Below, piece after piece: positions 4,193 to 37,542 of a DNA stretch of 38,318 nucleotides. The notes under the pieces are model-generated. The model had not been told where the DNA came from, did no database searches, and saw only the letters and a program-made list of their open reading frames with translations. The DNA lies in IMG/VR virus record IMGVR_UViG_3300043409_001807, positions 1 to 38,318 of that record; one strand, 5' to 3'. The stretch's first letter is position 1. Every line of letters starts with the position of its first letter. Origin of the DNA: a virus. A program made the position numbers and the translations under genes.

Positions 4193-4222
4193 CAGAACCA
4201 AACAACGAAAGGATTCAAAACA

Positions 4223-4405
4223 ATGGACGCTAAAAATGTTAAGTTTGATATGAATGGCACTACTAAGGGAGTGCGTGTGGAAGACACCAAGATGCTGGAG
4301 CCAGGTCGCGGACCTGAGTCTAGTTACCAAACGGGTAGCACTGGCTACCAGAAGGTGATGTCATCGAAGCCAAGTATGCCGAAGCTCGGTGCACGTGGCC
4401 AGTAA
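4223..4405 (+). CDS. Small hypothetical protein, 60 aa
   Basis: Hydrophilic 60-residue protein with no recognisable domain, rich in Gly, Lys and Ser and probably disordered (YQTGSTGYQKVMSSKPSMPK). The leader between the previous gene and the ATG is A/C-rich (ACCAAACAACGAAAGGATTC) and contains AAAGGA about 10 nt upstream. It sits between the capsid and connector genes, so a minor virion or assembly role is possible but not shown. Confidence 0.55.
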   Translation: MDAKNVKFDMNGTTKGVRVEDTKMLEPGRGPESSYQTGSTGYQKVMSSKPSMPKLGARGQ

Positions 4406-4433
4406 GTAACAACAAATTGGAGGCTGGACAACT

Positions 4434-5168: not shown

Positions 5169-6796
5169 TGCAAGACATTCCATCTAAAAGGACTCTTAAT
5201 AAAAAGAGTCAGGTTCTCGTGGTAGAGAAGAAGGCTTTTGATGAAAAGCTAGGTGGAATTGCGTCGACGACGTATGAGCAAGTGGTAGGGAATGGGGTGG
5301 CACCTACGACGAGTGCGTTTGGGATTGTGGATTCCAAACTTTATAATGAACGCAATACGAGTGAGTCGAGAGTGAGATGGGTCGCGTTTGATACGGGGCA
5401 CACTCCGATTATTACGAAGTATATTTTGGATGACTTTGGCAATCCTCTAGTGGAGGAAGTTAAAGTCGTTGGCGCTGGGACAGTGGTGCCGATCAACGAG
5501 TTTGCAAAACTGTCGGAGAAGGTTGAGAAGTTGGATTCGGCAAACGACTTGGTGAGGACGATTAAGAGTGTTGCCGGGACTTTCCCTAACAATAAAGTCG
5601 AGCATCGACAAGCAGTGGAGGAGTATGGTGGTTTGGATGTTAACATCACGACGCATCGAGAAGCTTTGGGAACACCCGGTGATGAGCATGTGAGCTATCC
5701 TGGGATTGTTGGAATCTCAACAGAGTTCGAAAATCAGCAGCGGATGCTAGTGAAAAGGGTTGTTGTAACGACACCAGACGCTTCGGCTGAATCGGTTACG
5801 ATGCGAGATCATCTACCGAATCTGCAGGCGGAACAAGTTTATAAAGAGGTGAGCGTTGTTGGGACTAATGATACCCCGACGAAGACTCACTTGGATATTA
5901 GCATTCAAGATAAGAAGGTGGTGAACGGGCAAAAGCTGCGGACACGGATTAAGGTGGCTGCTTGGGTGCCGTACACGGATACGGAGCAAGACGCTGACAC
6001 GGGTGGTACGATTTCGATTGTGAAAACGATCGAGGATGTGGATACATTCGTGCCGTCATTTGTGACTGGGGTTGATGAGTTCTCACGGCAGTTGGATACG
6101 GAAAAGGTGGAGGTGACTCGTAAAACGTTGGAGGCTTCCATGATTGGTCGACCTTTTTATTCGTCGAAGAATATTCAGTATAAGTTTCCGGGCTGGCTGA
6201 AACCTGGCGATGAGTATCGGTCGAATCAGATTTATTACTATTTGAACGGTGCGACTCAAATTCCAGTTATGGTGACAGCTGGGATGAAAGAGAAGAATGG
6301 TCAGACGTTGACTGTTCCCGCTCAGTTGATTACTACTTATCACAAGCTGCGCCCGATTGAGCCTGAGGTGTTTCAGTTTTATACCACGACATTCAGAGCA
6401 AACACAATGAATGATGGCTTGGGTGTAATTGGTGGTGCAACGTATCAGTTAGCTATACAGTTGTTTGGCCGTTCTTCAATCGAGATCAATGATATGATTA
6501 CTGATACGACAGCTTGCTTGTGGACAGCTAGCCAAACTGGAGGTATTTTCAAACTTCAATCTATTGGAAAGACCGCACCTACATGGTTACCATATTACCT
6601 TGCAACTGCTTACACGTTTGCACAAACCGAAGACATTCCTGCGAGCAAACCAACTGCGACTGAATACGTAGCGATGATGACCGCAGGGACGGTGTTTTTA
6701 GCTGGATGCGAGATCACCCCTTGGAAATACAATCTATGGAGACAAGTTCGAACCTATATCAAAATGCCCAATCTGATAACTCCTGGGATAGCGTAA
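5168..6796 (+). CDS. Putative tail structural protein
   Basis: 542 residues, dominated by short alternating beta segments and many Thr/Val residues, as in tail tube, nozzle or fibre proteins. It is encoded between the connector and the ejection-type proteins, the place of the tail nozzle in T7-like phages, but at 542 residues it is shorter than gp12 and no family motif was recognised. A short helical, possibly coiled stretch (NEFAKLSEKVEKLDSANDL) lies near residue 100. Codons end mainly in T or G. It starts 1 nt into the previous stop (TTCTAATGC) and its own 3' end is overlapped for 61 nt by the next gene. Confidence 0.5.
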   Translation: MQDIPSKRTLNKKSQVLVVEKKAFDEKLGGIASTTYEQVVGNGVAPTTSAFGIVDSKLYNERNTSESRVRWVAFDTGHTPIITKYILDDFGNPLVEEVKVVGAGTVVPINEFAKLSEKVEKLDSANDLVRTIKSVAGTFPNNKVEHRQAVEEYGGLDVNITTHREALGTPGDEHVSYPGIVGISTEFENQQRMLVKRVVVTTPDASAESVTMRDHLPNLQAEQVYKEVSVVGTNDTPTKTHLDISIQDKKVVNGQKLRTRIKVAAWVPYTDTEQDADTGGTISIVKTIEDVDTFVPSFVTGVDEFSRQLDTEKVEVTRKTLEASMIGRPFYSSKNIQYKFPGWLKPGDEYRSNQIYYYLNGATQIPVMVTAGMKEKNGQTLTVPAQLITTYHKLRPIEPEVFQFYTTTFRANTMNDGLGVIGGATYQLAIQLFGRSSIEINDMITDTTACLWTASQTGGIFKLQSIGKTAPTWLPYYLATAYTFAQTEDIPASKPTATEYVAMMTAGTVFLAGCEITPWKYNLWRQVRTYIKMPNLITPGIA

Positions 6797-6915
6797 AGCA
6801 ACTTGCAGATAAGCAAGAGGCTATCCGTCGTGAGATGACAGAGAAGGATAAGAAACAATACGAAGCCCCGAAGTTCCCTAACATCCGGTCGCTTAGCCCA
6901 TTTACTGAATTATGA
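6736..6915 (+). CDS. Small hypothetical protein, 59 aa
   Basis: Short hydrophilic helical protein (SWDSVKQLADKQEAIRREMTEKDKKQ) ending in an aromatic-rich tail. The start chosen is ATG at 6736 (METSSN..., context ATCT|ATG); an in-frame ATG at 6706 would overlap the tail gene further. The gene overlaps the 3' end of the preceding gene by 61 nt in another frame and overlaps the next gene by ATGA. Its position among the ejection-type proteins suggests a virion or assembly role; no function is recognised. Confidence 0.55.
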   Translation: METSSNLYQNAQSDNSWDSVKQLADKQEAIRREMTEKDKKQYEAPKFPNIRSLSPFTEL

Positions 6916-7616
6916 ATCCAGCACAACACTATCAACGAACACATGGGGGCAGCCCAGTCAATCCTTATGACTTGGCGTTTGCCCCTGTGAACGCTATGCA
7001 AGATCAGCAGGAGCGCCAGATGAAGGCGATCTCGAACATGATGCAGTTGCAGCAGCAAGCGAGTGCGCCGGATTTGGCTGCACAGGAAGTGGCGAGACAG
7101 GCGGAGCAGCAGCGATTTGCTAACCAAATGGCTCAGAACCAGTTTGGCCTATCACAAGCCGACAATGCTCGTGCTGATCAAAGCCAGCAGATTCAACAAG
7201 AGCAGTTTGGCTTGACGAGAGGCGATCATGCAGCGCAGGTTGCAGAGGCTAATCGTCAGTGGATGGAAGGTCAGAGAGCTTCACAGGAGGCTAACCAAGC
7301 CACTCAGGCTCATCGAAGCTGGGAGCAACAGCGTGCAGATCGGCTGGATGAGAACGCAATGGCACAAGATGTTTTACAAGGTCAGACTGGTCAGCATCGT
7401 GATGCAGCGTCATTGATGAACACTGTGGCTGGCATGGTGTCGGCCGGGTTACCTCAGGAGCACATCAACTGGTTGTTGCAGAACTGGAATGGTGGACAAG
7501 CCGCGCCAGTTCCGCCTTGGGTGGGTCAACCGTTGTATGGGGCACCGCAAGAAGCACCGCCTGATCCTGCATTACTGGAAAGATTTAAGAATATCAACCT
7601 TACTCCACAACAATAA
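6912..7616 (+). CDS. Gln-rich coiled-coil protein, putative internal virion (ejection) protein
   Basis: 234 residues. Residues ~30-150 are very rich in Gln, Ala and charged residues with heptad-like spacing (MMQLQQQASAPDLAAQEVAR and onward), so a long helix or coiled coil is expected. Imperfect repeats of Q.QFGL occur (NQFGLSQADNARAD and EQFGLTRGDHAAQV). The C-terminus is Pro-rich. Ejection proteins in short-tailed phages are frequently encoded as a small helical protein, a medium protein and a giant protein in this order, downstream of the tail genes, which is the basis for the call. It starts within the ATGA overlap and ends 2 nt before the next ATG. Confidence 0.5.
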   Translation: MNPAQHYQRTHGGSPVNPYDLAFAPVNAMQDQQERQMKAISNMMQLQQQASAPDLAAQEVARQAEQQRFANQMAQNQFGLSQADNARADQSQQIQQEQFGLTRGDHAAQVAEANRQWMEGQRASQEANQATQAHRSWEQQRADRLDENAMAQDVLQGQTGQHRDAASLMNTVAGMVSAGLPQEHINWLLQNWNGGQAAPVPPWVGQPLYGAPQEAPPDPALLERFKNINLTPQQ

Positions 7617-7618
7617 TT

Positions 7619-9136
7619 ATGGCCAAACCAACTACAGTTACAGAAGATCCAGCTGCCTTGGCGGCTAAGGCTGCAAAGGAAGCTGCGATGAAGGCAGCGG
7701 CAGATGCAGCAAAGAAGCCTGCGGTTGACCCTTTTGGTGGTCCTGTGGCAGAGAACACACTGGAGAATCCTTTTGCACAGCATCAGGCTAGGATGGCTGG
7801 GGCACCTGTGGCACCGGTAGTTCCGCCTGCGGGAGCGGTTCAACCGGATTTGAACCAAGCCAACGATCCATTTGGCGTTATCCCTAAAGGAGCCAATCAG
7901 GCTCCGAGTGGTGCATTGGCGGATGCGTTTAAGGTGCAGGGAGCGAACGCAGAACGGATGATGACGATCGCGAAAGATCGTAGGGTTAATCCGATGACAG
8001 GCACCACCTCTATTGGTCGTCGCAACATGGATGGGTCGTATGAAGATCCACTTGCACCAAAAGGGATGGACTGGATTAACGCGTTTGGCCCAGGGCGCCC
8101 AGAGGTCGCACAGCGTCAAGCCCGTCTGGATGGCCAGCTGGCAGACACACGACAGGCAGCCGGTGGTGCTGTTGCAGCGTTGAAAGCACAGCAGGAAGCG
8201 AGTGGTCAAAGGGGGCCGGCTGACAACGCGCCTAGTCGTCCAAGCTATCAAAGCCAGACTGTGCAAACTCCAGGCAGTAATGTGCGAGTTGCTTATGATG
8301 CACAGGGGATGCCTGTGGGGTTCTCAGGTGCAAGCGCATCAACCTGGATGCCAACATCGGGGGCAGGTAATGGTGGATATAGTCCGGCGGAGCATGCTGC
8401 ACTGCAGTCCACAGCAAGTCAGTTGGCAGCAGATCAATCGGTTAGCCCATGGGGTGGCTCGGCTATTCCAGCACAAGCTGCAGGGGCTCCTCCTAGCTCG
8501 GTTCCACCACCAGCTGCTGCGCCACCTCCTCCTCCGGCTGCTCAACCTCCGCTGCCACCACAAGCTGCTGATATGGCACAGAACGAGACGGATAGTTTTG
8601 CCCCGCCTCTCTCACCTCCAGTGAGTATGGAGGGCTTCAATAAAGATATCAGCCAATTCCGTCAAGGTGCGGGTCAGGCATTTACACCGCCTCCGCCCCC
8701 TAGGTCCGACCCATTTACTGGGCAGCCTCAGAATCCTGACATACTCAGTCCTGAGTTTGCTCAGATGCTTAATGTGCTTACAAACAGAGTCACAAAAGAA
8801 CGTGGTAATACTACGGTCGGACAGATGAACGAAGGAAGCACAAATCCACTTAAAGTTCTCACTCATTGGCCTTCTGTACCTAACGCGGGAGTAACTGAAG
8901 CGGCAAAGAACTTTCCTGCTTACGACTGGAGTATGAACTCCGGAGCACAGGCCAACTTCCAGCGGATCCAAAGCAATCTGAATGACTTGATTAGGCAGAA
9001 GAAGATCGAACTGGCGCCTAAGCCTAACCAAGCACAGTTCAATCAATTCACGCCTGGAAGCGACCGGTTTCGGTATCAGATCCGTCCTCAGACTACTAAC
9101 GAAGCTGCGGTTGAAGCAGTCTACGGTAAACGTTAA
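7619..9136 (+). CDS. Ala/Pro-rich low-complexity protein, putative internal virion protein
   Basis: 505 residues with no recognisable catalytic domain. The N-terminal 40 residues are an Ala/Lys helix (AAKAAKEAAMKAAADAAKKP). Residues ~280-325 are a polyproline/alanine tract (VPPPAAAPPPPPAAQPPLPP), and the C-terminal 130 residues are more structured. Such disordered proteins between tail and giant ejection genes are often packaged in the head or act at the tail base; this is inference from context only. It is separated by 2 nt from the gene before and by 15 nt from the giant gene after. Confidence 0.48.
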   Translation: MAKPTTVTEDPAALAAKAAKEAAMKAAADAAKKPAVDPFGGPVAENTLENPFAQHQARMAGAPVAPVVPPAGAVQPDLNQANDPFGVIPKGANQAPSGALADAFKVQGANAERMMTIAKDRRVNPMTGTTSIGRRNMDGSYEDPLAPKGMDWINAFGPGRPEVAQRQARLDGQLADTRQAAGGAVAALKAQQEASGQRGPADNAPSRPSYQSQTVQTPGSNVRVAYDAQGMPVGFSGASASTWMPTSGAGNGGYSPAEHAALQSTASQLAADQSVSPWGGSAIPAQAAGAPPSSVPPPAAAPPPPPAAQPPLPPQAADMAQNETDSFAPPLSPPVSMEGFNKDISQFRQGAGQAFTPPPPPRSDPFTGQPQNPDILSPEFAQMLNVLTNRVTKERGNTTVGQMNEGSTNPLKVLTHWPSVPNAGVTEAAKNFPAYDWSMNSGAQANFQRIQSNLNDLIRQKKIELAPKPNQAQFNQFTPGSDRFRYQIRPQTTNEAAVEAVYGKR

Positions 9137-9151: not shown

Positions 9152-12100
9152 ATGCCCCTCCCCTTTCGTCAAGTTTACGACATCTATAAGCAGAATGAAC
9201 CCCAGCTGGGTGACATGTCTTTGCAAGACTTTAGCAAGATTGCAAACTATGTCACCCAGTCTAAGGACTTCTCGTCAGGCGATGTTGGCCCAGTCGGAGG
9301 GGCATTGAAGAAGGCGAGTTACTATGTTGATAATGCGATCAACTGGACGGGGGCGCCTAAGGTCACCGGTGCGATGGGGGAAGGGATTTTTAGGGCGTTC
9401 GGGCAGAACCCTGAGACTGGTCGGCACATTGGTGAAGCTATTCCGCGTGGAGTGGTAGATTTTGCACCGATGATTGTTGCAGGTGCTATGAGCGCACCAG
9501 TGTCTTTACCGATTCTGGCTGGCACCGGAGCCCTCGGAGCTTTGAACGCTTACGGTAACGATGCATCGAAAGCTGGGATCGCCGCGAGTGCACTGGCACC
9601 TGCAGTCGGTTTAGGCGTAGGTGCAATGGCTCGTGGAGTGGCAGCACCCGCACTTGAAGCTGCTGCATCGCGGTTCCCAGCTTTGGCTAATGTTGGTATC
9701 AAAGGTGCTGCTACGACAGAGGGGTTGGCCACTGCAGCCGAAGCGGGAGCATCTCGTGGATTGGCCGTCGGCTCTCCGGTTACACGCACCGTGTTGAATG
9801 GGTTTGGCGATCGTGCTGCACTCTACGGAGCAGAAAACCTTGGCGCAATTGCTGGTATGGAAGGAACACAGGTGGCCTTCGGAGAGAAGAAGCTCTCAGA
9901 CGTTGTCACTCCTGAAAACCTTCTGGGCCAAGTTGTAGGGATCACCCCGTTTGCAATCCATGCCCTGCCGAAGCTCCTGCGCCCTCAGGTTCTTTCGGTT
10001 GTTCCTGTTGTGACGAGTGATCCAAAAGTCACCCCAATGGATGCAAGTCATGTCGACTATGCTAACAGAGTGCTGGAGTTCGACACAGCCCGCAAAGCCA
10101 CTAAAGCCATTGTCGATCCAACTGAGCGCAAACTAGCTCGCATCAAGCTCAACGAGGACTTTGCCGATCTTCTTTCAAGTAAAAAGTTCGCCGTCGTATC
10201 GGAGACTACCAAGCAGGAAGTGAAACAAACTGCGGCAACCGACGCGCCAAATCTGCAAAACCATATTCTTGATAGGCTCACACTCATCGAGAAAACTCTG
10301 GCTGACTTCAACGCAACCAACAAAGCTTTGCTAGACGAAGGCAAGCCAGCGGTGGCTCCTGAGGACATGGTGGATTCGAGTTTGGGTGAACTAAACGCGC
10401 TCACCACTAAACCCATCACGGTTGCAGAATCCTCTAAGCTGGTTGAAGACTTGGTCAACACCGGTTCAACCGAAGCTGAGGCTGCACATGCGGTGGTTCA
10501 AGCCGGAATCAACAACGTTCTCGACCATCCTGTAACCCCGGAAGTGCACCCAATCGACAAGGCGGTGGGCTTCGATAGCAGAACGCCAGAAGCTGGAGCG
10601 GATGGTGCTCCGGTTGAGCCAGTTGCGGCAAAGCCTGGTCCTTTGGCAAAAACACTTGAGGCTTTGAAGGCACAGCAGCATAATAAAGGCGGACGACCTA
10701 AGAAGGATTTTACTGAGGATAATATTAAGTTCAACGATTATCTGAACAAAGACCCTGAGGGACAGGCTGTTGCCAAAGTGATCAGTGAAATCTATCCGAA
10801 GATTGACCAGATTCGTGGTGGGATTCCTGATGAACACCAGACTGATGTGAGTCGGAAGTTGTTCAACTCGGTGGAGGGATGGAAAAGGAATCCGGAGCTA
10901 GCTGGTAAACCTTTAGAGGATCGACTGGCGGCTTTGAAACCGTTTCTTCACAATGCTATTCGACAGGCCCGGACAGGAACGCCTATGAAGGAGTTACATC
11001 CACTTGGGCCTGATGGGACTTTAATTAAATATGGCACGAATGCAAGCGCACGCACAGCAGCTGATGCACTTCAAGTTAAAGCAGATGCCGATCCGCAGAG
11101 TATTGTATTTTATAATGTAGTGCGCGTTGGCTCTAAGGAGAAACCTCGTTATGTGGTAAAAGCTTTTGAAGATCTGAGTAAGAAGAATGTCAGCATGGAT
11201 GCTTCAAAAGACGCAACTGATGCAGCAGCACAGCAGACTGCGGTTGATTTTGAATTGGAGAATACTCAGTTGATGAATGATGGTGCAGCTGAGGTGGTGG
11301 ATACTCCGGAGATTCTGCAAAAAGATTTGCAGGATGCTATTGGTGGAGTGACAACATTGAAGCAGTTTCTTGGTGCGCTGAAAGGTGCACCGGAAGGATT
11401 GCTTGATTTGAAAGCAGCCTTTCCTGCCGATAAAGCTATCGTGCCTGAGGAGGTTAAGCAATGGATGGTTGATAATGTGGTGGCGAAGTTACCACCAGCG
11501 GATGCACGTGTGTTCATCAATCAGGTTGCTGGGGAGGTGACAAAGGCGAAGATGACGGAAAGTGAGAAAGCTAAACCGTCTTTGATCTCGAAGGCGCAGC
11601 AGGCCACAGAGAAGTTGAAGGCTATTAGAGTGGCAGAAGCATTGGATACTGCGACCAAAAAGACAGGACAAGTTGATGCTGATCGGTCGGCTGAGATGGT
11701 GCAGGATCAGTATTTTAGTCTGTTGGATAATGTAGAAAACACGCTTGAATTAGTTGATCTGGTCAAACAAAGTAAGGCACTTTATACGAAGTTTCTTGAT
11801 GACTTTGATGGAGGTATTCCAGATTTGTATGACCTCACTGAATGGATGAAGGAGGGCTATGGGAACTCAAACCCTGGTTCGATGTTTAAAGCGATCGCAG
11901 GTAATGTGATTAAGAAGTATGCCCCTGAAACTTTACGCACCACCTTGGCCGGGACTGGTGCAGTTGATGCTCCATTGACCTTGTTGCAAAAGGCTTTGGG
12001 GATGGCAGGTGGCCGGAATACGCTGGTGGAGTTATCTTATCCACTGCGGTCAAAGATCTGGAAAGAAACCGGCTGGAATCCTTTGATGGATGGACAGTGG

Positions 12101-15100
12101 AGATTTGAAATCAACGATCTTCCGGCGAAGTTGTTGAAGGCTAGAACAGCCTTGCAGACAGAGTTTCTGGCTGACCCGAAGAAGGTGATTAAGTTGAGGG
12201 ATATCTTAGATCATCCGGAGCTTTATAGGCATTACCCAGAGCTGGCAAACTATCGGGTTATCTACGATCCTAAGGTACAGGATGGGTCATTAGGGTTTCA
12301 TGAAGGATTGACGAACTCGATTGGATTGACAGAACGTGGTCTGATGTTGCAGAAGAATGAATTGAAGTCTTTGTTCTTGCATGAAATCCAGCACGCGATT
12401 CAAAAGTTTGAAGGGTTCGCACCTGGTGGTGAGAAGCAAGATATCAAGGTGGATAATGCGACCTATCAACGGACGTTACAGCGTGAGTTGGAAGCTGGTC
12501 GGGCGCCAAGTGATGCTGAGAGCCGTGCACTTTTTGCAGGTTACAAAGCCATTCATGGTGAGATGGAGGCTGGGATTGTGGAACAGCGGGCGATGCAGTT
12601 GAAGACCCGTGTGGGGCCAGATGGGCAGCCGAGGTATGAGGGGAAAGATGTGCCACCCTATGAGAGTGCAGCGTTACACCCGTATGATAATCGCTCGGTG
12701 CCTTTGAAAGACTGGACGATTCTGCCTGGCGATGGGACGAGCTACTCGATGCAGCCTACGGTGGCTGAGCCGTTTCAGTTCGGAATGAAGGGGGTGACAG
12801 AGCAGGTGCTATCTCGAATTGGCTGGACCAAGAAGCAGATTAGTGATGTGGCCCACCCGTTTATTGCGAAGCTAGAGAAGGTGTTGAACTTTAACGGGAT
12901 CGAATTCGGCGTGATCGCGAAGGGAACTGAAGTTGGTGGGAGGGAATTGCTGGGCGCTGCGAGTGTAACTGGCCGCGTGCGTAAGTTGTTTTTAGCTGCG
13001 AGCACCAATAACAAAGGTCGTTCGTTGGAAGAGCAGACAGTTGGATTTGCACTGAATGCCGCACATGAGGTTGGGCATCATATTGAGCAAGCTGCTACGA
13101 GTGGACTGCTTTCACCCGAGGCCACGTTGGCACGTGATGGGTGGAGAAACTGGGCTACTCAGGCACAACCTGAGTGGAGTCGGGTGTTGAAGGAGTTTAG
13201 CGAGGTGCTACCGAAAGAATGGCAGAATTTGACTGAGCTCAAAGACATGATGAACCCTGCGAATGTGGCGGAGTTCGAGGCCAGCGCACACGCGATCTGG
13301 GCAATGAGCCATGTGGCGAAGTCGAGCGATCTGGTGTTGTCGAGTAGCTTGATGCCCCATCCAGTGAGGACTTGGTTCGCTACGCTCGGTAAGTGGGGAA
13401 GAGACTTGTTGGGTGCAGCTAAGTCGTTCTTGCATTTGGACCAGCACACGGGCACGAAGGAAAATCGGGCTGATGTGGACCGGTTGGTTAACTACTTTGA
13501 AAGCATTAAACACTCGGTGAACGACGCGAATTTGAAGATGGCAGAGTTTGCCAGTTTGGCTGGATTGGATAGTCACTCCATGTCGTTCTTGAATGGCGAG
13601 GGGCTGACTGAGATCGCACCAAGTGTGTTGGAAGCCAGAGATGGGGTGTTGAGAACTCAGTTGACTGGTGTAGTGCCGAAGACCTTACAAGATAAGGTGT
13701 TCGACAGCGCTAATCGTTCTTTGGTTTATCTTGACCAGCTGGCTGGGAAGTATCCAAAAATTGCTAACGCCGCCTATGCAGTGATGGGGGCAGGTTGGAA
13801 CAAAAAGATTGTGACCTACGAGGCCATGGCGCCTTTGTATGGAAAGCAGGATTTAGGCTCCGGTAAGTTAGTGATCGACGCAGCGAAGAAGCCTTTGTTA
13901 GAGTTGGTTGCTAACTATGGTCGTGCCAACAAAACCGCTAACGAGATTCATCTTTGGGAGAATTCAAACAAGATGGAGTTCCCTTTGGCCAGTCCGGGCA
14001 CAGCGTCTAACCGCTTGGCTGCACGAATCGGACAGCTGACACCGACTGAACGCCAAGCGGTTGAGATGTGGCACGAGAGTAAAAAGCTCAGCCATCAGAA
14101 GCTGAATGAACATATCTTGCAAGGGAAGCTGGACGAAACCAAGTTGATTATTGGAAACGTATTGGCGACTATGACAGGTCATGTGGCAGGGAAGCATGGC
14201 CAGCTGGAGCAAGCAGTCGATCTTGCGATGAGGAGTGTGACAGAGCAGTTGCCAGGCGTTAAGCAGAATATGATTGCTACTTGGTCACAGATGCTGGCGA
14301 CTGGTGACCCTTTGCTGGATAGTCAATTGCAACAAACTGTGTTTGAGCTGGCGACGACTGCTGCTGAGAGTGTGGCGAGGCTTCAAGCTTCACTCGCTAG
14401 TCGCCCGTGGTATACCCCAGAAATTCGTACTGGTTCTCACTTGCTGCGTGCCTTTGATAAGTCAGGTAAAGAAGTGTTCACCTTGGGGTATAACACGACT
14501 GTTGAGCTGGCTGAGTTGACCAGCATGGGGAAAGCTCAAGGGGCCGAGAAGTTTGAGTCTACTGTGAGAGAGCGCAATCTGGATGTGAAGTTTGATGATG
14601 TGTTTAAAGCCAATATTGATCACTTTGAAACCACGATGACACGAAAGCTTCGCGATGCACTCCCTGCGAATATGCAACATCAGGCGGAAGACCTGGTGGG
14701 GTATATGAATATCGAAAGCGAGTTCCAACGGTTGGCACAGGCGAACAAACTTAACCCCACAGTCAGCACACGGAGGCTGGCACCTGGGCGCGAGCAGTTA
14801 AACCTTGTTTCTGGTTGGCAGCAATACATCAACATGATGAGTAATGTGTTGTCGAACGGAAGAGCACAGGCTCGGATGAAGTTCGAATTCAACAACCCAG
14901 AATTGAACGATCCAGTGTATACTGGGAAGATTCAACAGATCAAGGATACGTTTAAGAACTATCAAACACCCGATTCTGAACTGTCTAAAAAGGTTTCACA
15001 GATCAACGCTGTGTATCATCTTGGATTTAATATTCCAACTCATCTGGCGGAGCTCTCCCAAAGCTTGTCGACAATGCTGCCGGAATTGGTGTTCCAAGCT

Positions 15101-16699
15101 GGTAGCACCACCAAAGGCGTTAAGATGCTAATGCAGACAGCAGGTGAGATGGCGAAGTTCTACTCCAAAAAGACTGTGGGTAAACTCATCGGGAAAGATG
15201 AGTGGCACAATTGGGGCAACAAGCAGGAAGAACTGGTGTTGGAAGAGATGGCCCGTAGAGGGCTGTTGGCTCAACATGCTTTCATGGAACACTTGGATGG
15301 GGATAACGTGGGGAACAACTTGAGCCTCATCTCCACAGCGCAACGCTCTCCGATTGATATGTTGAAGTCGGCTGCTGCCTCACCATTCAAAGCTTACTCC
15401 GATGTGTCGATGAATGTGTATGGGAGCTTTACTAAGTTCAACACGCGCATGGCCACTATTTTGGGCTACCGGCTGGCCAAGTCACAGGGCAAATCTCACG
15501 AAGCCGCACTGGAGGACACTGCGAGGTTCATCACCAAAACCACATTCACTTCAGGGCGTGCAGGTCGTCCGCCAGAGTTTTATAATAACTCTACGGTAGG
15601 CGCGGTGCTCTACTCACTCCAACGCTATTCACTCAGCTGGATGTCGATGTATGGCAAGCACTTGTCTGGAGCGTTTGGAGACCAGGCTAGGATGACTGAG
15701 TTAGGCCAAGGGCTCAAAGGCAATCACCGGAAAGCGTTGGCAACTATGACCGCAGTTCAATTCGGATTAGCTGGTGCATTGGGGCTGCCGTTTGCCGCAG
15801 CGCTTACCACGATTCTAGAACAGTCACTCGGGATTGATATTCGTGGCCAAGCCTATAACGCACTCAGTTCCATCATGCAGGAGGACGAGGACGAAGGTGG
15901 TGGTATGTTTGCTGACCTCGTGATGCGCGGTGGTGTGAACGCCTTGGCTGAACGTGCAGGTGCACCAGTGGACTTTGGCTCACGCTTCAACCTTTCAGGC
16001 CTCCCAGGTATGAATGAGTTCAATGGGTTTGATCCTGGCAGAGTATTCGGCCCAACAGTCAATGTGGCGAACGCGATGTTCCAAGGAGTTAAAGGACTGG
16101 CCACTGGAGAACTTCCAGCCTTGGCGAAAACCGTCATGCCGGTTGGTCTCCGTAAAGCTTCGGAGTATTTCATCAACGGGGATGCACTCACATCGAAGGG
16201 AACCAAGTTTGGACTCTCCTCTAACGAAGGCGCGTTGTACGCTGCTGGGTTTACTCCCAACAGGGTGCGTAAAACTCGTGATGCTGAAGCCATCCTTCGC
16301 ACGCAGAGTGAAGCTCGTCAACGTCGTGATCAACAAGCAGCAGATGCTGTGGCAGAACTGGTTCAATCCAATCCCGACGAAGCACGGAAAAAGTATGCGG
16401 AACACCTGCGGTCAACAGGCACAGAGCCACGAGATTTTGCGAAATCCGTAGCCGACGCACACCTCAAAGCGAACTATCCCAAAGATATTAGGACTACGAT
16501 CGCAGAGCCAGACGCAAAAATGGCATCGCAAACGCTCAAATCAATGAACGTCACGATGCCACAGTCTACACAAGGTGAACAGGCAAACGCCTATAACACC
16601 ATGTTACAGTTCTTCAACCAACGACCAATCATGTCGCGCCAACGGGAGGCACAACGGCGGGACTCACTGGCGGCGTGGGACCCGTACCAAGCTTTTTAG
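9152..16699 (+). CDS. Giant polyvalent/ejection-type protein with two zincin motifs
   Basis: 2515 residues. Residues ~95-280 are Gly/Ala-rich and hydrophobic, as in ejection proteins that enter membranes. Residues ~985-1090 have the features of a large polyvalent protein-associated domain of LPD23 type: IWKETGWNP, GQWRFEIND, DHPELYRHYPEL, and the metal-binding HEIQH at H1077. A second zincin motif, HEVGH, is at H1305. Residues ~2050-2270 contain long amphipathic and hydrophobic segments ending in conserved-looking phage C-terminal sequence. Polyvalent proteins are known from phages and conjugative elements as multi-enzyme proteins delivered with the DNA into the recipient cell. It probably is a virion protein injected with the genome, with peptidase activity directed at host wall or host proteins; that role is inferred. 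The 3' end converges on and overlaps the minus-strand helicase gene by 71 bp. Confidence 0.75.
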   Translation: MPLPFRQVYDIYKQNEPQLGDMSLQDFSKIANYVTQSKDFSSGDVGPVGGALKKASYYVDNAINWTGAPKVTGAMGEGIFRAFGQNPETGRHIGEAIPRGVVDFAPMIVAGAMSAPVSLPILAGTGALGALNAYGNDASKAGIAASALAPAVGLGVGAMARGVAAPALEAAASRFPALANVGIKGAATTEGLATAAEAGASRGLAVGSPVTRTVLNGFGDRAALYGAENLGAIAGMEGTQVAFGEKKLSDVVTPENLLGQVVGITPFAIHALPKLLRPQVLSVVPVVTSDPKVTPMDASHVDYANRVLEFDTARKATKAIVDPTERKLARIKLNEDFADLLSSKKFAVVSETTKQEVKQTAATDAPNLQNHILDRLTLIEKTLADFNATNKALLDEGKPAVAPEDMVDSSLGELNALTTKPITVAESSKLVEDLVNTGSTEAEAAHAVVQAGINNVLDHPVTPEVHPIDKAVGFDSRTPEAGADGAPVEPVAAKPGPLAKTLEALKAQQHNKGGRPKKDFTEDNIKFNDYLNKDPEGQAVAKVISEIYPKIDQIRGGIPDEHQTDVSRKLFNSVEGWKRNPELAGKPLEDRLAALKPFLHNAIRQARTGTPMKELHPLGPDGTLIKYGTNASARTAADALQVKADADPQSIVFYNVVRVGSKEKPRYVVKAFEDLSKKNVSMDASKDATDAAAQQTAVDFELENTQLMNDGAAEVVDTPEILQKDLQDAIGGVTTLKQFLGALKGAPEGLLDLKAAFPADKAIVPEEVKQWMVDNVVAKLPPADARVFINQVAGEVTKAKMTESEKAKPSLISKAQQATEKLKAIRVAEALDTATKKTGQVDADRSAEMVQDQYFSLLDNVENTLELVDLVKQSKALYTKFLDDFDGGIPDLYDLTEWMKEGYGNSNPGSMFKAIAGNVIKKYAPETLRTTLAGTGAVDAPLTLLQKALGMAGGRNTLVELSYPLRSKIWKETGWNPLMDGQWRFEINDLPAKLLKARTALQTEFLADPKKVIKLRDILDHPELYRHYPELANYRVIYDPKVQDGSLGFHEGLTNSIGLTERGLMLQKNELKSLFLHEIQHAIQKFEGFAPGGEKQDIKVDNATYQRTLQRELEAGRAPSDAESRALFAGYKAIHGEMEAGIVEQRAMQLKTRVGPDGQPRYEGKDVPPYESAALHPYDNRSVPLKDWTILPGDGTSYSMQPTVAEPFQFGMKGVTEQVLSRIGWTKKQISDVAHPFIAKLEKVLNFNGIEFGVIAKGTEVGGRELLGAASVTGRVRKLFLAASTNNKGRSLEEQTVGFALNAAHEVGHHIEQAATSGLLSPEATLARDGWRNWATQAQPEWSRVLKEFSEVLPKEWQNLTELKDMMNPANVAEFEASAHAIWAMSHVAKSSDLVLSSSLMPHPVRTWFATLGKWGRDLLGAAKSFLHLDQHTGTKENRADVDRLVNYFESIKHSVNDANLKMAEFASLAGLDSHSMSFLNGEGLTEIAPSVLEARDGVLRTQLTGVVPKTLQDKVFDSANRSLVYLDQLAGKYPKIANAAYAVMGAGWNKKIVTYEAMAPLYGKQDLGSGKLVIDAAKKPLLELVANYGRANKTANEIHLWENSNKMEFPLASPGTASNRLAARIGQLTPTERQAVEMWHESKKLSHQKLNEHILQGKLDETKLIIGNVLATMTGHVAGKHGQLEQAVDLAMRSVTEQLPGVKQNMIATWSQMLATGDPLLDSQLQQTVFELATTAAESVARLQASLASRPWYTPEIRTGSHLLRAFDKSGKEVFTLGYNTTVELAELTSMGKAQGAEKFESTVRERNLDVKFDDVFKANIDHFETTMTRKLRDALPANMQHQAEDLVGYMNIESEFQRLAQANKLNPTVSTRRLAPGREQLNLVSGWQQYINMMSNVLSNGRAQARMKFEFNNPELNDPVYTGKIQQIKDTFKNYQTPDSELSKKVSQINAVYHLGFNIPTHLAELSQSLSTMLPELVFQAGSTTKGVKMLMQTAGEMAKFYSKKTVGKLIGKDEWHNWGNKQEELVLEEMARRGLLAQHAFMEHLDGDNVGNNLSLISTAQRSPIDMLKSAAASPFKAYSDVSMNVYGSFTKFNTRMATILGYRLAKSQGKSHEAALEDTARFITKTTFTSGRAGRPPEFYNNSTVGAVLYSLQRYSLSWMSMYGKHLSGAFGDQARMTELGQGLKGNHRKALATMTAVQFGLAGALGLPFAAALTTILEQSLGIDIRGQAYNALSSIMQEDEDEGGGMFADLVMRGGVNALAERAGAPVDFGSRFNLSGLPGMNEFNGFDPGRVFGPTVNVANAMFQGVKGLATGELPALAKTVMPVGLRKASEYFINGDALTSKGTKFGLSSNEGALYAAGFTPNRVRKTRDAEAILRTQSEARQRRDQQAADAVAELVQSNPDEARKKYAEHLRSTGTEPRDFAKSVADAHLKANYPKDIRTTIAEPDAKMASQTLKSMNVTMPQSTQGEQANAYNTMLQFFNQRPIMSRQREAQRRDSLAAWDPYQAF

Positions 16700-32511: not shown

Positions 32512-32849
32512 ACAAATGATCTTACGATGTTGAGGATTTGGTTACAGAGTTTGTCGTGATCGGCGGCGTCTGGTGCGCCATCGGCGGAGCCTTCGACGAG
32601 GAAGTAGACTTCCTGCAAGGCGTGGTGCATCTCCATGTTGGAGTTGACCTTGATGGGTGGCTGGAGGTCGTCCTTTGGAACGATGTAGGTGTAGTATGGG
32701 CATTCGCCATAGTAGTGCGTATTGCCTCCGAACCCGTCTACCATCCAGCAACGACAAGGCGTGTGGTTGAGAGGCAGGTCGGTAGTTTCTAGGAATCTCC
32801 AGCCTTCAGGGATGGCGGACTCGGGGATGTTTTCTGGATTGAGAATCAT
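32508..32849 (-). CDS. Hypothetical protein, 113 aa
   Basis: Start ATG 32849 (MILNPENIPESAIPEGWRFL); an upstream start at 32924 is rejected. Contains several Cys and aromatic residues (HTPCRCWMVDGFGGNTHYYG, ECPYYTYIVPKDDLQ) and a C-terminal helix. No family recognised. The ATG overlaps the previous stop and its stop overlaps the membrane-protein gene, so it is coupled on both sides. Confidence 0.6.
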   Translation of the reverse strand: MILNPENIPESAIPEGWRFLETTDLPLNHTPCRCWMVDGFGGNTHYYGECPYYTYIVPKDDLQPPIKVNSNMEMHHALQEVYFLVEGSADGAPDAADHDKLCNQILNIVRSFV

Positions 32850-33142
32850 TTTGTTAGGCGTTTGATTTCGTGGTTGAGGAAGTCGATGCGGGTTTGGCGG
32901 GCACCGAAGTTGTAAAACAAGCAAGAACCTTTTTCTGCATGGATTACCTCTTGAAGCCCCTTGTCCGTAGGACTGAAAGCCAGTGCGAGTTTTTGGAGTT
33001 GTAACCTATGATGGGTATTCCAGACTTTGACAAAAGTTTGGCTACCGAAGCAAAGGTGGCCAGCACTCGAGGCGAGATACTCTTTAAGAATCCGCTTAAT
33101 CACTTGTAGGTTCCAAAGTTGGTTAAAAGTTTTTGGTTTCAT
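32846..33142 (-). CDS. Hypothetical protein, 98 aa (paralogue of the 101-aa gene at 34436)
   Basis: Start ATG 33142 (MKPKTFNQLWNLQ). It shares order and residues with the gene at 34436-34741: ILKEYLASS / ILDAYLMDS, KVWNTHHRLQLQKLALAFSP / KLIWDTHREELRALAFVFNP, RQTRIDFLNHEIKRL / RQARIDFLDHEILRL. The C-terminal RIDFL.HEI.RL is the best conserved. Function unknown. The gene follows a terminator (33163-33197), so a promoter must lie just upstream of the ATG or the terminator is leaky. Confidence 0.66.
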   Translation of the reverse strand: MKPKTFNQLWNLQVIKRILKEYLASSAGHLCFGSQTFVKVWNTHHRLQLQKLALAFSPTDKGLQEVIHAEKGSCLFYNFGARQTRIDFLNHEIKRLTK

Positions 33143-33162
33143 AAAGCTGGGAAAATTTAGCA

Positions 33163-33197
33163 CAAAAAATTCCCCGCCAGGATTTCTCCCAGCGGGG
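33163..33197 (-). terminator. Intrinsic terminator after the 73-aa gene
   Basis: Minus strand: CCCCGC stem, GCGGGG return arm with a GG/CC inner pair, then AATTTTTTGTG. It lies 14 nt after the stop at 33212. Confidence 0.75.
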
Positions 33198-33946: not shown

Positions 33947-34204
33947 TTAGAACTCAGGTTGGGTGGAGGTTTCTGGTGTGGAGGTTTCTGGATCAGGGGT
34001 GGGCTGTGGGCGGTCGAGGACTTTGTAGTCGACGTAGGTTGCTTGGAGTTTCAGGTCTGACTTGTAAGACTCCTGTGCGTCGTCGCGCCACGTGCGCTCG
34101 ATGAGTTGGCCCGCTAGTAAACCTTTCATCAAGGCTTCGGAACCGTGGACTGATATTAGTAACTTCGTCCCGTAGGGGATTTCGATCTCGATGTAGTTTG
34201 CCAT
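33947..34204 (-). CDS. Small hypothetical protein, 85 aa
   Basis: MANYIEIEIPYGTKLLISVH, then a helix (SEALMKGLLAGQLIERTW), an alternating strand (DLKLQATYVDYKVLD) and a Pro/Thr-rich tail. Small beta-rich fold, function unknown. The leader between it and the upstream membrane-protein gene contains covarying element copy 3 (34259-34297), so its translation may be controlled there. Confidence 0.58.
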   Translation of the reverse strand: MANYIEIEIPYGTKLLISVHGSEALMKGLLAGQLIERTWRDDAQESYKSDLKLQATYVDYKVLDRPQPTPDPETSTPETSTQPEF

Positions 34205-34258
34205 ATAGTTTTAACAACTAACTTTTGGTTTGGTGGTGGATTGCGTGGTGCAAAACCA

Positions 34259-34297
34259 TCCCTGCAACCCAGTTGGTTAGACTGGGCTGAGTGGGAG
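34259..34297 (-). promoter_or_regulatory. Covarying stem-loop element, copy 3
   Basis: Minus strand: TCCCACTCAG, stem CCCAGT, loop CTAACCA, stem ACTGGG, then TTGCAGGGA. The closing C-G, A-T and G-T wobble (CAG...TTG) equal copies 1 and 2 while the inner stem is different. It lies between the membrane-protein gene and the 85-aa gene. Confidence 0.72.
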
Positions 34298-34301
34298 GGT
34301 T

Positions 34302-34439
34302 CTAGTCCATACAGACTGCGATCAAAAGCCATGCAGTAAGCATGGAGAAGAACGCGAGGACGAGGAAGGTGAACAGCGGGGACTCTGGTGGCTGCTCATC
34401 GGGTAACTGTAATCGGGGGGCGAGTTGGGTGGGTTTCAT
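34302..34439 (-). CDS. Small single-span membrane protein, 45 aa
   Basis: MKPTQLAPRLQLPDEQPP, then ESPLFTFLVLAFFSMLTAW, LLIAVCMD. Residues ~20-42 form one transmembrane helix; the N-terminal part is soluble and Pro-rich. The ATG at 34439 overlaps the preceding stop (ATGA). Topology resembles small phage membrane proteins (holin, superinfection-exclusion), but no partner is visible. Confidence 0.62.
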   Translation of the reverse strand: MKPTQLAPRLQLPDEQPPESPLFTFLVLAFFSMLTAWLLIAVCMD

Positions 34440-34741
34440 GGTTGGGAAAGTCGGAGGATTTCGTGATCGAGAAAGTCGATTCGAGCTTGACGATGTGAAC
34501 CTCTGATAGGCACATACAACAGGCCATTAGTGCGGGATTCGCTGCAGCACAACTTCTCATCAGGGTTAAACACAAAAGCCAAAGCACGTAGCTCTTCTCT
34601 GTGGGTGTCCCAGATCAGTTTAAACACCTCCGAGGCTTCGCAAAGGAAGTCGGTGGTGGAGTCCATAAGATACGCGTCAAGTATCGAGGAGATGGTGGTT
34701 GGAGTCCAAACGGACTCGAACGTAGTGGGTGGGTTCATCAT
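34436..34741 (-). CDS. Hypothetical protein, 101 aa (paralogue of the 98-aa gene at 32846)
   Basis: Product MMNPPTTFESVWTPTTISSI, LDAYLMDSTTDFLCEASEVF, KLIWDTHREELRALAFVFNP, and RQARIDFLDHEILRL. Shares its pattern with the 98-aa gene at 32846-33142. It is directly behind the promoter at 34766-34794, with a predicted 5' untranslated region of about 18 nt and start context CACACT|ATG; tandem ATGs at 34741 and 34738. Function unknown. Confidence 0.66.
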   Translation of the reverse strand: MMNPPTTFESVWTPTTISSILDAYLMDSTTDFLCEASEVFKLIWDTHREELRALAFVFNPDEKLCCSESRTNGLLYVPIRGSHRQARIDFLDHEILRLSQP

Positions 34742-35189
34742 AGTGTGGGTTTCCTCTAAGCGGGGACATTACAACAGGTCGGGGCGCGGGTCAAATAGTT
34801 ATTTAAGGGATTTTCAGGTTCTTTCATCTTCTCTCCATTGCATCGCGAATGCGACCGCCCTCCTTGCCTAGTTCTCCCTGTGGAGGGTGGAGGAGGCGAA
34901 GGGGAGGGTGCGGACTAGGAGGGTGCTTCGCAATGCGATGTAACGCCAAAAGGCCCGGAGACCAGAGAGAGGAAAGGTGGGGAGAGGAGGAAGGGTGGCG
35001 TTCTGCGACAGAAAGGGACTGGGAGAGGGTGGTGGTGGCGGACTGCGTTTAAGACGTTTTCGGGTGGTGGTGGCGGACTAGGAGGGAGAGGGGTTTGGGT
35101 GGTGGTGGCGAAGCACTAGGTGAAGTTTTCTGATGGGTGGTGGCTTCGCAATGCAGTGAAGGACAGATGGGCGGTGAGGGCCAAAGGGT
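34742..35189. repeat. Intergenic region with G-rich iteron-like repeats and a promoter
   Basis: 448 nt without a gene. On the plus strand, units GGGTGGTGGTGGCGGACT recur at 35028 and 35062, with variants at 35098 and 35135 (spacing 34-37 nt), and related GGGAGGGTGCGGACTAGGA near 34902. Three GGGTGGTGGTGG runs could form G-quadruplexes. The left end holds the minus-strand promoter and the right end meets the 96-aa gene. A degenerate copy of the leader hairpin motif is at 34995-35019. Origin or regulatory function is inferred. Confidence 0.5.
34766..34794 (-). promoter_or_regulatory. Promoter of the 101-aa gene (TTGACC type)
   Basis: Minus strand: TTGACC (34794-34789), 17 nt spacer, TAATGT (34771-34766), preceded by AAATAACTATT, which matches the promoter at 30627-30656. 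The predicted start is ~34759, giving an 18-nt leader. Confidence 0.66.
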
Positions 35190-35480
35190 TTACCAGTTAG
35201 GGGTTTGGGTGTCGTAATCCCATTCTCCAAGCATCATTGCTTCGAGACGTTGTTCGGCTTGCCACTCGGGGTCGCCGTTAGTGCGGACTTGCCAAGAGGT
35301 TTGCTCCCGAAGTTGAAACAGTGCGTTGAAGTCGCGTTCGTTGCAGGTTTGCATCTTCCGATCAACCTCACGATTCAATTCGCGAAGTTGCTGGGCTAGG
35401 AGTTCCTCAGCGTAGCCGGAGGCATTGGCCAAGGCGGATGTGAGGCTGTGGATTCTGTCTTTCAGTTCGTCAATTTGCAT
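35190..35480 (-). CDS. Coiled-coil protein, 96 aa
   Basis: MQIDELKDRIHSLTSALANA, then SGYAEELLAQQLRELNREVD, RKMQTCNERDFNALFQLREQ and an acidic, aromatic C-terminus (GEWDYDTQTPNW). Residues 1-45 form a heptad-like helix. The ATG at 35480 follows a GCACCG-TC-CGGTGC hairpin by 4 nt. No function is recognised; small coiled-coil phage proteins often bind host factors. Confidence 0.6.
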   Translation of the reverse strand: MQIDELKDRIHSLTSALANASGYAEELLAQQLRELNREVDRKMQTCNERDFNALFQLREQTSWQVRTNGDPEWQAEQRLEAMMLGEWDYDTQTPNW

Positions 35481-35576
35481 ATGGTTGCACCGGACGGTGC
35501 TATTTGTGATTTCCTAGTGATCTGTCTCGTCAGGCGAAGGTGATCAATCCTTCACGACACCCGAAGGTGTTTCGAC
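35481..35576 (-). promoter_or_regulatory. Three tandem hairpins between the 79-aa and 96-aa genes
   Basis: Minus strand: ACACC-TTCG-GGTGT (stable UUCG tetraloop, 35561-35574), GAAGG...CCTTC and GCACCG-TC-CGGTGC (35485-35500) next to the ATG. They may control transcription or translation of the 96-aa gene; there is no T-tract. Confidence 0.45.
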
Positions 35577-35816
35577 TTATGGCACTAGGCCGGAGTTTTT
35601 CTGTGCATCAGACAGCAGGCTATAAAGCAGGCTATCGAGTTCAGTGTTCTCTGGATTGCCGGAGGCTAGTAAGAACAAAATGGCTCCCACTTGGTCGTTA
35701 GTCGGGCGAAGGCTGACGCGCTCGCAGTCCACAACACCTTCGATCTCCCAGTTACCGTCTTTGCGGTTGAACTCCGCATCCACGAGGCCGTCGTCCAGTG
35801 TAACTTTAATCTGCAT
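35577..35816 (-). CDS. Hypothetical protein, 79 aa
   Basis: MQIKVTLDDGLVDAEFNRKD, GNWEIEGVVDCERVSLRPTN, DQVGAILFLLASGNPENTEL, then a helix (LDSLLYSLLSDAQ). Beta-rich N-terminus and helical C-terminus. ATG 35816 has AAAGGAG 8 nt upstream, one of the few strong Shine-Dalgarno sites, and sits downstream of the long intergenic region. Function unknown. Confidence 0.62.
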   Translation of the reverse strand: MQIKVTLDDGLVDAEFNRKDGNWEIEGVVDCERVSLRPTNDQVGAILFLLASGNPENTELDSLLYSLLSDAQKNSGLVP

Positions 35817-36281
35817 AGTATTTGTCTCCTTTGGTTTGTTTGCTGATTTGAACCAACGCGTTAGTGGTTAGCTCACTCCAACAGACTTGGTGGCGCGGGG
35901 CCGTGGTGGGAGATGGGGGCCGTGCGTGCGTGCGTGCGTGCGTGGCCGCCTCCCTCCCTTCCACGAACGTGCCGCGAACGGGCTTTGGGATGGGTGGGTG
36001 GCGTGGCGTCCGTGGACTTCGCACCCTCCGTGGACTCTTTCCGTCCTCTGTGTGGGTTCCCCTGTGGTTTAAAAAAATTTTTTGACTAGACAACGAATCC
36101 CCCCACCCTACTGATGAACCCTCGTCACTCCCTGCGTTCCGCACCCTTACACGGGGCGTCCCCCACTTAGCAACGGGGGCGTTCGTCATGCGTTCGTCGG
36201 GCCGAGGGGATGACCCACGGACGGACGCACGCACGAACGAACCCTCACGTGGAACACGGAAAAATCGGGTGGGCCTCGGAC
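35817..36281. other. Intergenic region with inverted repeats and an A/T palindrome
   Basis: About 465 nt without a supported gene. It contains (CGTG)6 at 35921-35944, an A7T6 tract within TTTAAAAAAATTTTTTG at 36068-36084, and on the right arm GACGCACGCACGAACGA at 36225-36241 facing the left CGTG array. Repeated TCCGTGGACT occurs at 36009-36039. The layout suggests a replication or regulatory region. A 168-codon minus-strand frame here is not protein-like. Confidence 0.5.
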
Positions 36282-36318
36282 AAAAAGGTGGCTTTCTGTG
36301 ACCGAAGCCCACCGTGGG
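36282..36318 (-). terminator. Hairpin terminator, copy e of the hairpin motif
   Basis: Minus strand: GGTGGGCTTC, GGTCA, CAGAAAGCCACC, then TTTTTGTCC, directly after the stop at 36324. It is the same motif as leader copies a-d but in the opposite orientation. Confidence 0.66.
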
Positions 36319-36323
36319 ATGGG

Positions 36324-36608
36324 TTAGTCGAGGAGCGCCCAGAGTGTGGGGTCGATCGGGCCGGAGTCCGATCGGGTGGAGGTGGATGAGGTTTTCAGCA
36401 GTGACTTCGCTTTGGTGGCGATCGCACTAACTGGCGCGTTGCTGCCAAGGGAGGCTTTGGCTGCGAGGGTGGCACCGAAAACGGTGGCGACTTCGCGACT
36501 GGCACGGAGCCGGATGGCTTCTAACTTCCGACAGGATTGGTCCGCCCGTGGGTCGTAACTCCAATTACGGAGGCGGTCGGGAATGATTTGTGCAGTGGTT
36601 TGTTTCAT
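36324..36608 (-). CDS. Hypothetical protein, 94 aa
   Basis: MKQTTAQIIPDRLRNWSYD, PRADQSCRKLEAIRLRASRE, then an Ala-rich helix (VATVFGATLAAKASLGSNAP) and an acidic, Ser/Thr-rich end. Basic N-terminal helices could bind nucleic acid; not shown. Preceded by covarying element copy 1 and a short leader (ACTCCATCAAACC|ATG), followed by terminator copy e. Confidence 0.6.
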   Translation of the reverse strand: MKQTTAQIIPDRLRNWSYDPRADQSCRKLEAIRLRASREVATVFGATLAAKASLGSNAPVSAIATKAKSLLKTSSTSTRSDSGPIDPTLWALLD

Positions 36609-36616
36609 GGTTTGAT

Positions 36617-36667
36617 GGAGTTAAACTCCCTGCAAGGGTGGGTTGCTAGTCCACCCCTGAGTGGGAA
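36617..36667 (-). promoter_or_regulatory. Covarying stem-loop element, copy 1
   Basis: Minus strand: TTCCCACTCAG, stem GGGTGG, loop ACTAGCAAC, stem CCACCC, TTGCAGGGA, then palindrome GGAGTTTAACTCC, 8 nt before ATG 36608. The stem differs from copies 2 and 3; flanks are equal. Confidence 0.75.
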
Positions 36668-36668
36668 T

Positions 36669-36953
36669 TTACTTAAACTCGTACCAAGCGTCGGAGGTGT
36701 AGTGCTCATTGAGCCACACCGCGATCTTATGATGTTGACGCGCCCAATCGGCGTCAACCTTTGCAAACTCCTCGATGATTTCGGTGAAACTACGCCCAAT
36801 CGCGAGTCGTAGCCCGATGGAGTCGTACCAACCTGCGAAATAACTTTTTGGGTCAGGAGTGACTCCAAACATTTCACAGATCCTATCGTCAATAGAGACA
36901 AAGGTTGAAGGTTGTTTTTCACCTTTAACTCTCAGCTGGAAGCATGATGGCAT
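36669..36953 (-). CDS. Hypothetical protein, 94 aa
   Basis: MPSCFQLRVKGEKQPSTFVS, IDDRICEMFGVTPDPKSYFA, GWYDSIGLRLAIGRSFTEII, then a long amphipathic helix and EHYTSDAWYEFK. Aromatic, mixed fold; no family recognised. Covarying element copy 2 lies upstream, with its downstream palindrome 32 nt before the ATG. Confidence 0.58.
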   Translation of the reverse strand: MPSCFQLRVKGEKQPSTFVSIDDRICEMFGVTPDPKSYFAGWYDSIGLRLAIGRSFTEIIEEFAKVDADWARQHHKIAVWLNEHYTSDAWYEFK

Positions 36954-36984
36954 ATTTTGTAGTGGTTTTGATGTTTGCTAACTT

Positions 36985-37035
36985 GGAGTTAAACTCCCTG
37001 CGAGGCGGTGTGGCATTCACCGCCCCGTGTGGGAA
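36985..37035 (-). promoter_or_regulatory. Covarying stem-loop element, copy 2
   Basis: Minus strand: TTCCCACAC, stem GGGGCGGTG, loop AATGCCA, stem CACCGCC, TCGCAGGGA, then palindrome GGAGTTTAACTCC. The element lies between the 60-aa gene and the 94-aa gene. Confidence 0.75.
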
Positions 37036-37036
37036 C

Positions 37037-37219
37037 TTACGGTAGGTAGTCAAAGTCCGAGCTACGGAGTATCACTTTCCAATCATCTCTTTTGTAGTGC
37101 TCTCCCATGTAAGCAATGGCACATTCTTTTTTGATGTGGCTCAATGCTTCCAGTGGCGTATCGACGGCAGAGTCATACTGCCAACCTTCTGTTGTGTTGA
37201 ATAGTATGAGGTATTTCAT
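37037..37219 (-). CDS. Small hypothetical protein, 60 aa
   Basis: MKYLILFNTTEGWQYDSAVD, TPLEALSHIKKECAIAYMGE, HYKRDDWKVILRSSDFDYLP: a compact beta-alpha-alpha-beta-type fold with a clear first strand and a central helix. Start context AACT|ATG, coupled by ATGA to the preceding gene. No function is recognised. Confidence 0.6.
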   Translation of the reverse strand: MKYLILFNTTEGWQYDSAVDTPLEALSHIKKECAIAYMGEHYKRDDWKVILRSSDFDYLP

Positions 37220-37482
37220 AGTTTGATGGAGATTCTAACCTCCGTGGGTCCAGTCCATGTCACGTAGTGACCTCGCGTTTTGACAAAACCCTTCGCTTCG
37301 AGTAGGTTAAGCAGCCTAAGCCACTGGTCTAAGCTCAGCACGTCCATCACATCCACATACAGATGCCCGCTAGGAGCACCGCCTGTCGTCAATAGTGTGC
37401 GGACTGTCTTGTCAATAGCTGCTTTCACAGCTTCCTCTTTAATAGGTGTAGTATTTGTTTCCATAGCGTATTCCCGATTCAT
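37216..37482 (-). CDS. Winged-helix-like protein, 88 aa
   Basis: MNREYAMETNTTPIKEEAVK, a helix (AAIDKTVRTLLTTGGAP), then LSLDQWLRLLNLLEAKGFVK, TRGHYVTWTGPTEVRISIKL, where the helix-turn-helix followed by strands (LLEAKGFVK..GHYVTWTG) suggests a winged-helix-type DNA-binding fold; this is by eye only. ATG at 37482 or 37464 (the latter in CGCT|ATG). Ends in ATGA. Confidence 0.56.
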   Translation of the reverse strand: MNREYAMETNTTPIKEEAVKAAIDKTVRTLLTTGGAPSGHLYVDVMDVLSLDQWLRLLNLLEAKGFVKTRGHYVTWTGPTEVRISIKL

Positions 37483-37542
37483 ATCAGGCTTGAATGGCTA
37501 GGGAGGTTTCCCTCCCCGCCACTCCATGCCTAGCATGTTCTC

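Follow-up and report, generated by a model that had tools for sequence, protein, structure and literature searches.

The window analysed here, that is, the whole stretch of 38,318 bases, is an IMG/VR-type phage record that encodes an SU10-type major capsid protein, a family A DNA polymerase and a 2515-aa protein (9152-16699) whose sole Pfam domain match is LPD23. The last of these is kept in two related phages, G001 and G002. The minus strand carries a long stretch of small ORFs without database matches, a region that we infer to be expressed early. Three stem-loop elements occupy gaps that separate small minus-strand ORFs of this putative early region (Table 1), and the ATG of the ORF upstream of copy 3 overlaps the stop codon of the preceding ORF.

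Table 1. Stem-loop elements, alternative hairpins and flanking ORFs in the window (z, fold z-score on the minus strand against dinucleotide shuffles)
Feature	Position	Strand	Remarks
ORF, 60 aa	37037..37219	-	5' of copy 2; stop codon within copy 2
Copy 2, full stem-loop	36990..37039	-	z -4.49; outer helix 37039-37031 / 36998-36990; internal loop ACA / CA; inner helix CGGGGCGGTG / CACCGCCTCG
Copy 2 stop codon TAA	37039-37037	-	inside outer helix
Hairpin 2 after copy 2	36985..36997	-	GGAGT-TTA-ACTCC; competes with outer helix
ORF, 94 aa	36669..36953	-	between copies 2 and 1; stop codon within copy 1
Copy 1, full stem-loop	36622..36671	-	z -4.15; outer helix 36671-36663 / 36630-36622; internal loop ACT / CA; inner helix CAGGGGTGG / CCACCCTTG
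Copy 1 stop codon TAA	36671-36669	-	inside outer helix
Hairpin 2 after copy 1	36617..36629	-	GGAGT-TTA-ACTCC; competes with outer helix
ORF, 94 aa	36324..36608	-	3' of copy 1
ORF, 45 aa	34302..34439	-	5' of copy 3; hydrophobic stretch
Copy 3, full stem-loop	34253..34302	-	z -3.36; outer helix GAACCCTCCC / GGGATGGTTT, one C.T mismatch; internal loop ACT / CA; inner helix CAGCCCAGT / ACTGGGTTG
Copy 3 stop codon TAG	34304-34302	-	last base is the start of copy 3
Alternative hairpin after copy 3	34235..34261	-	weaker, mismatched
ORF, 85 aa	33947..34204	-	3' of copy 3
Probable copy 4, other outer helix	37485..37532	-	z -5.51; 3x2 internal loop again

The region also holds repeats and a hairpin of other kinds. 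Two minus-strand ORFs (34436-34741 and 32846-33163) are paralogues with 38% identity over 100 aa, and locus L057 holds a relative of both; searches for relatives of a 94-aa early protein, and in bacterial genomes for relatives of a PDDEXK protein, returned none. ORFs 36608 and 37219 have TCCATCAAACYATGAAA in common at their starts (36597-36620 and 37208-37230), a repeated start-region sequence. From 35900 to 36310 runs a G+C-rich non-coding stretch with CGTGCGTGCG / CGTCCGTCCG / ACGAACGC repeats, perhaps serving as an origin or in some other regulatory role; a block resembling it, with CGTTCGTTCG and ACGAACGCACG, is found in the early region of G001 (L031:5620-5906). Imperfect GTGGTGGTGGCGGACTAGGAGGG repeats occupy a second non-coding stretch (34840-35160), and ORF 36608-36324 is followed by a long hairpin (36263-36313; 11 + 8 bp, 3x1 loop, -30 kcal/mol) that is of another kind than the three copies.

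The original prediction placed three copies of one element on the minus strand, and the pattern TCCCACN{15,45}GCAGGGA indeed matches exactly three times in the window, each time on the minus strand and where predicted, against 0.03 matches expected from shuffles. The minus-strand cores (36627-36666, 36995-37034 and 34259-34296 for copies 1, 2 and 3) put the TCCC 2, 2 and 5 nt past the stop codon of a small ORF, after which the next ORF follows. Between the constant ends stand inner stems of 9, 9 and 10 bp that are unrelated in sequence yet complementary, each with one G-U pair, and the G-U at the third pair that had been pointed out is found in all three. An outer helix between TCCC and GGGA had likewise been proposed; the pairing exists, but the helix is longer, amounting to 9 bp in copies 1 and 2, where UAARUUCCC pairs with GGGAGUUUA and the stop codon is included. 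These two copies fold as UAARUUCCC-[ACW]-inner stem-[CA]-GGGAGUUUA, and copy 3 has an outer helix of about 10 bp with one C.U mismatch. The inner helix measures 9 or 10 bp, for a total of 18-19 pairs in the window copies, and the recurring feature is a central 3x2 internal loop between the outer and inner helices. A pseudoknot of the copy-3 loop (AACCA) with a downstream UGGUU was set aside; by eye it is absent from copies 1 and 2. A fourth copy with a different outer helix is probable in the gap before ORF 37482-37216, where TAGGC-[ATG]-GAGTGGCGGGGAGG-GAAA-CCTCCCT(A)GCCATTC-[AA]-GCCTG folds as UAGGC-[AUG]-14 bp with one bulge-[AA]-GCCUG; the covariance model matches 37491-37526 weakly (E 0.22), in a register differing from this fold.

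On the minus strand, which is that of the mRNA, the z-scores of the four leaders range from -3.4 to -5.5, and the plus strand of copy 1 has a z-score of -0.76. The non-Watson-Crick pairs of the elements are G-U on the mRNA strand, as in RNA. Because folding is strand-specific (copy 1 tested) and the G-U pairs stand on the mRNA strand, RNA is favoured over cruciform DNA. Of the selected structure with compensatory change originally envisaged, as RNA or as cruciform DNA, the selected structure is supported, but the cruciform is disfavoured by the opposite-strand z of -0.8 in copy 1. Chance seems a poor source of such elements: among 50 distinct chance sequences with the constant ends, taken from public viral and genome contigs, none had an inner stem of at least 7 pairs with at most two G-U. 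Apart from this record, none in the viral and genome contig collections scanned contains the exact-ends form; matches there were chance ones alone. An exact scan of viral contigs for TGCAGGGAGTTTAACTCC gave three matches that all belong to one related coding sequence. That no known riboswitch or phage RNA had been recognised in the element agrees with Rfam, which gave no match at gathering score and none at E up to 5 on 34200-37100. The three ORFs downstream of copies 1-3 are mutually unrelated, so the leaders were not copied together with a gene, and joint duplication of genes and leaders was rejected since the downstream genes are not paralogues. It is very probable that these leaders contain an RNA structure under selection, whatever its function.

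Compensated copies in related phages, on which the original prediction had been staked, do exist: among relatives gathered by portal, capsid and polymerase searches, G001 and L055 carry the same layout in other sequences. G001 (loci L029-L031) is collinear with the window, with a polymerase 61% identical, and has three elements with the 3x2 loop whose sequences differ from those of the window (L031:4662, L029:100 and L031:4338). One lies directly past a stop codon (CAGAC-[ACA]-CGGGGCAGGCA...UGCCUGCCUCG-[UA]-GUCUG), one at another stop codon (AGAA-[ACU]-CUGGAGAGCGU...-[CC]-UUCU) and one 5' of the gene at L031:4440 (GGAC-[AUU]-CCGCACAAGGUAG...-[CA]-GUCC). In a fourth G001 leader, whose loop is smaller, CGGCAGGCA/UGCCUGUCG replaces the first leader's CGGGGCAGGCA/UGCCUGCCUCG, a 2-bp difference that can be read as compensated. 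G001 leader L031:5220, with a 2x2 or 1x1 loop, was left out of the 3x2 set. L055 has one hairpin (10-bp + 3x2 + 13-bp) close to a stop codon. G006, a more distant relative, carries five hairpins close to stop codons in about 1.8 kb, with loop geometries other than 3x2, one of them with the stop codon inside its outer helix, and G004 has two hairpins with similar ends and variable inner stems immediately 5' of an ATG. The remaining related records offer few or ambiguous cases; two 3x2 loops at stop codons in G013 were set aside as ambiguous, one with terminator-like A/U tracts (L134:10594) and one with a 4-bp outer helix and TTTT after it (L134:7109). G001 also repeats AAGTAGCTTTAGCCAAC, a small hairpin, after stop codons (L029:421-440, L029:4514-4535 and L031:5576-5596); this is a second type of intercistronic hairpin. 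The sequences themselves show the structure of the elements, its conservation while the sequence changes, the strand it belongs to and its location in intercistronic gaps, at stop codons.

Seven 3x2 members, trimmed to equal length, form a gap-free alignment in which 91 of 91 cells are paired (shuffles, 60%; slid controls, 39-48%) and 12 of 13 pairs show double-sided change, counts that are partly circular because four of the seven members were selected by geometry. The three window copies escape this circularity, having been found by their constant ends alone. Loop letters vary less than the helices: the 5' strand of the internal loop begins with A in every member, its 3' strand ends with A in six of the seven, and the pair next to the loop is C-G in six.

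The palindrome GGAGTTTAACTCC that had been noticed after two copies is present (hairpin 2 in Table 1), but it does not form an independent element further downstream. The 3' arm of the outer helix contains the palindrome's left arm, and the outer helix and hairpin 2 therefore compete. Precisely this choice separates the minimum-energy from the centroid structure of copy 2. Across the window and G001 leaders the outer 3' arm re-pairs downstream, mostly from the fourth nucleotide of the putative fragment, with a combined p of 4e-4 (0.003 when every leader tested is included); no window copy reaches significance by itself (p 0.10-0.23), and significant re-pairing is absent from four of the five G006 leaders. 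The sequence of hairpin 2 is not conserved in relatives, where the stem letters differ, and hairpin 2 leaves the start codon uncovered in every window copy. The alternative hairpin is moderately supported. A full leader would be expected to form the outer helix, and an RNA beginning at CAGGGAGUUUAAC to form hairpin 2.

Tentatively, and by analogy with the early R sites of T7, the elements may be endonuclease (RNase III-type) processing signals between early genes. They would then act as mRNA-sense, stop-codon-anchored intercistronic stem-loops of the early region, each a hairpin of about 20 bp with a central asymmetric internal loop whose 3' strand would be where the cut falls. The inner stem would stay on the mRNA of the upstream gene as an exonuclease-resistant 3' end, while the downstream mRNA would begin with the 3' arm of the outer helix; once released, this arm could refold to a small hairpin near the new 5' end. 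With a cut at the position equivalent to that in T7, the downstream RNA would begin (CA)GGGAGUUUAACUCC, its 5' end folding as GGAGU-UUA-ACUCC. Cutting, the enzyme responsible and the effect on stability are what we infer here. A more elaborate version, in which a single internal-loop cut yields both an upstream 3' hairpin and a downstream 5'-terminal hairpin (cleave-and-refold) and is used repeatedly, with the stop codon built in, to turn the early transcript into individually protected messages, is speculative and rather doubtful.

The early RNase III sites of T7 (R0.3, R0.5, R1, R1.1 and R1.3) are alike in being intergenic and present in several copies between small early genes. Upon refolding of the T7 record they are irregular hairpins with two helices around an internal loop, in which letters near the loop are constant and other stem parts variable. 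The cut of R1.1, published at nt 5887 (PMC8708148), hits the internal loop of this refold on its 3' strand. T7 has ten RNase III sites (PMC9135205), and such sites require structure rather than a strong consensus (PMC8708148), so the free stem sequence of the elements fits an RNase III reading. The two sets differ in that they have no sequence relation, the covariance model finding no match at E up to 5 in T7 400-8400, and in that the outer helix of the phage elements includes the preceding stop codon, their 3' arm is able to form a second hairpin and their cutting is putative. Against RNase III, the constant TCCCAC/GCAGGGA of the window exceeds the sequence conservation that this enzyme needs and would suit a specific binding protein. 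By likeness of plan, the phage RNase III processing site is the closest known kind, with membership putative; stop-codon anchoring and a refolding 3' arm would make the elements a variant of that plan.

Such a binding protein is the basis of another reading, conceivable if rather unlikely, in which the 3x2 loop and adjoining pairs are the recognition site for a protein of phage or host origin and the element is an RNA operator controlling translation or stability of the downstream gene. The constant window ends, the restrained loop letters and the recurrent C-G pair beside the loop would all be at home here. Yet the protein is purely hypothetical, G006 has other loop geometries, and the element sits right at the stop codon, which in copies 2 and 3 puts it 44-57 nt 5' of the start codon, far for direct occlusion of initiation. 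Translational coupling is quite unlikely: a ribosome at the stop codon would open the outer helix and let hairpin 2 form, or the reverse, setting initiation of the next gene with no cutting. The stop codon within the outer helix of copies 1 and 2 and of a G006 leader, the mutual exclusion of the two structures and the divided predictions for copy 2 speak for such a switch; the exposed start codons speak against it, as does re-pairing that is individually non-significant and mostly absent from G006.

Strong hairpins right behind stop codons also recall transcription terminators or attenuators, intrinsic or Rho-related, between early genes. The elements share with intrinsic (Rho-independent) terminators a stable hairpin just past the stop codon, but have a conserved internal loop, whose constant surrounding letters termination does not need, and no U-tract, the sequence reading GGGAGUUUAACUCC and GGGAUGGUUUUG. 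A terminator scan omits the elements on the minus strand and lists true U-tract terminators at 29180-29152 and 33197-33172, and this explanation appears very unlikely. A DNA-level element, be it a cruciform, an N4-type hairpin promoter or a REP-like mobile repeat, is scarcely credible. The early promoter hairpins of phage N4 have a 5-bp stem and a 3-nt loop, dimensions matched by hairpin 2 of copies 1 and 2, and multiple copies in intergenic gaps would also be in keeping; yet the opposite strand of copy 1 folds no better than shuffles and the stem letters of hairpin 2 are not kept between relatives. An N4-type promoter was rejected because the 2515-aa protein has no match to an N4-type RNA polymerase (Pfam, LPD23 alone; PDB, none). 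REP/BIME repeats are likewise intergenic imperfect hairpins with internal mismatches, whereas the present elements number just 3-4 copies with unrelated stems. True copies are absent from the viral and bacterial contigs scanned; many near-identical copies of the REP/BIME kind were sought in 84,980 genomes, which gave chance end matches alone.

If the RNase III-type processing reading is true, an unrelated group of uncultured phages would divide its early transcript by structured sites in the style of T7, with the stop codon built in. The elements would then also provide a sequence-independent signature for locating such sites in other phage genomes.
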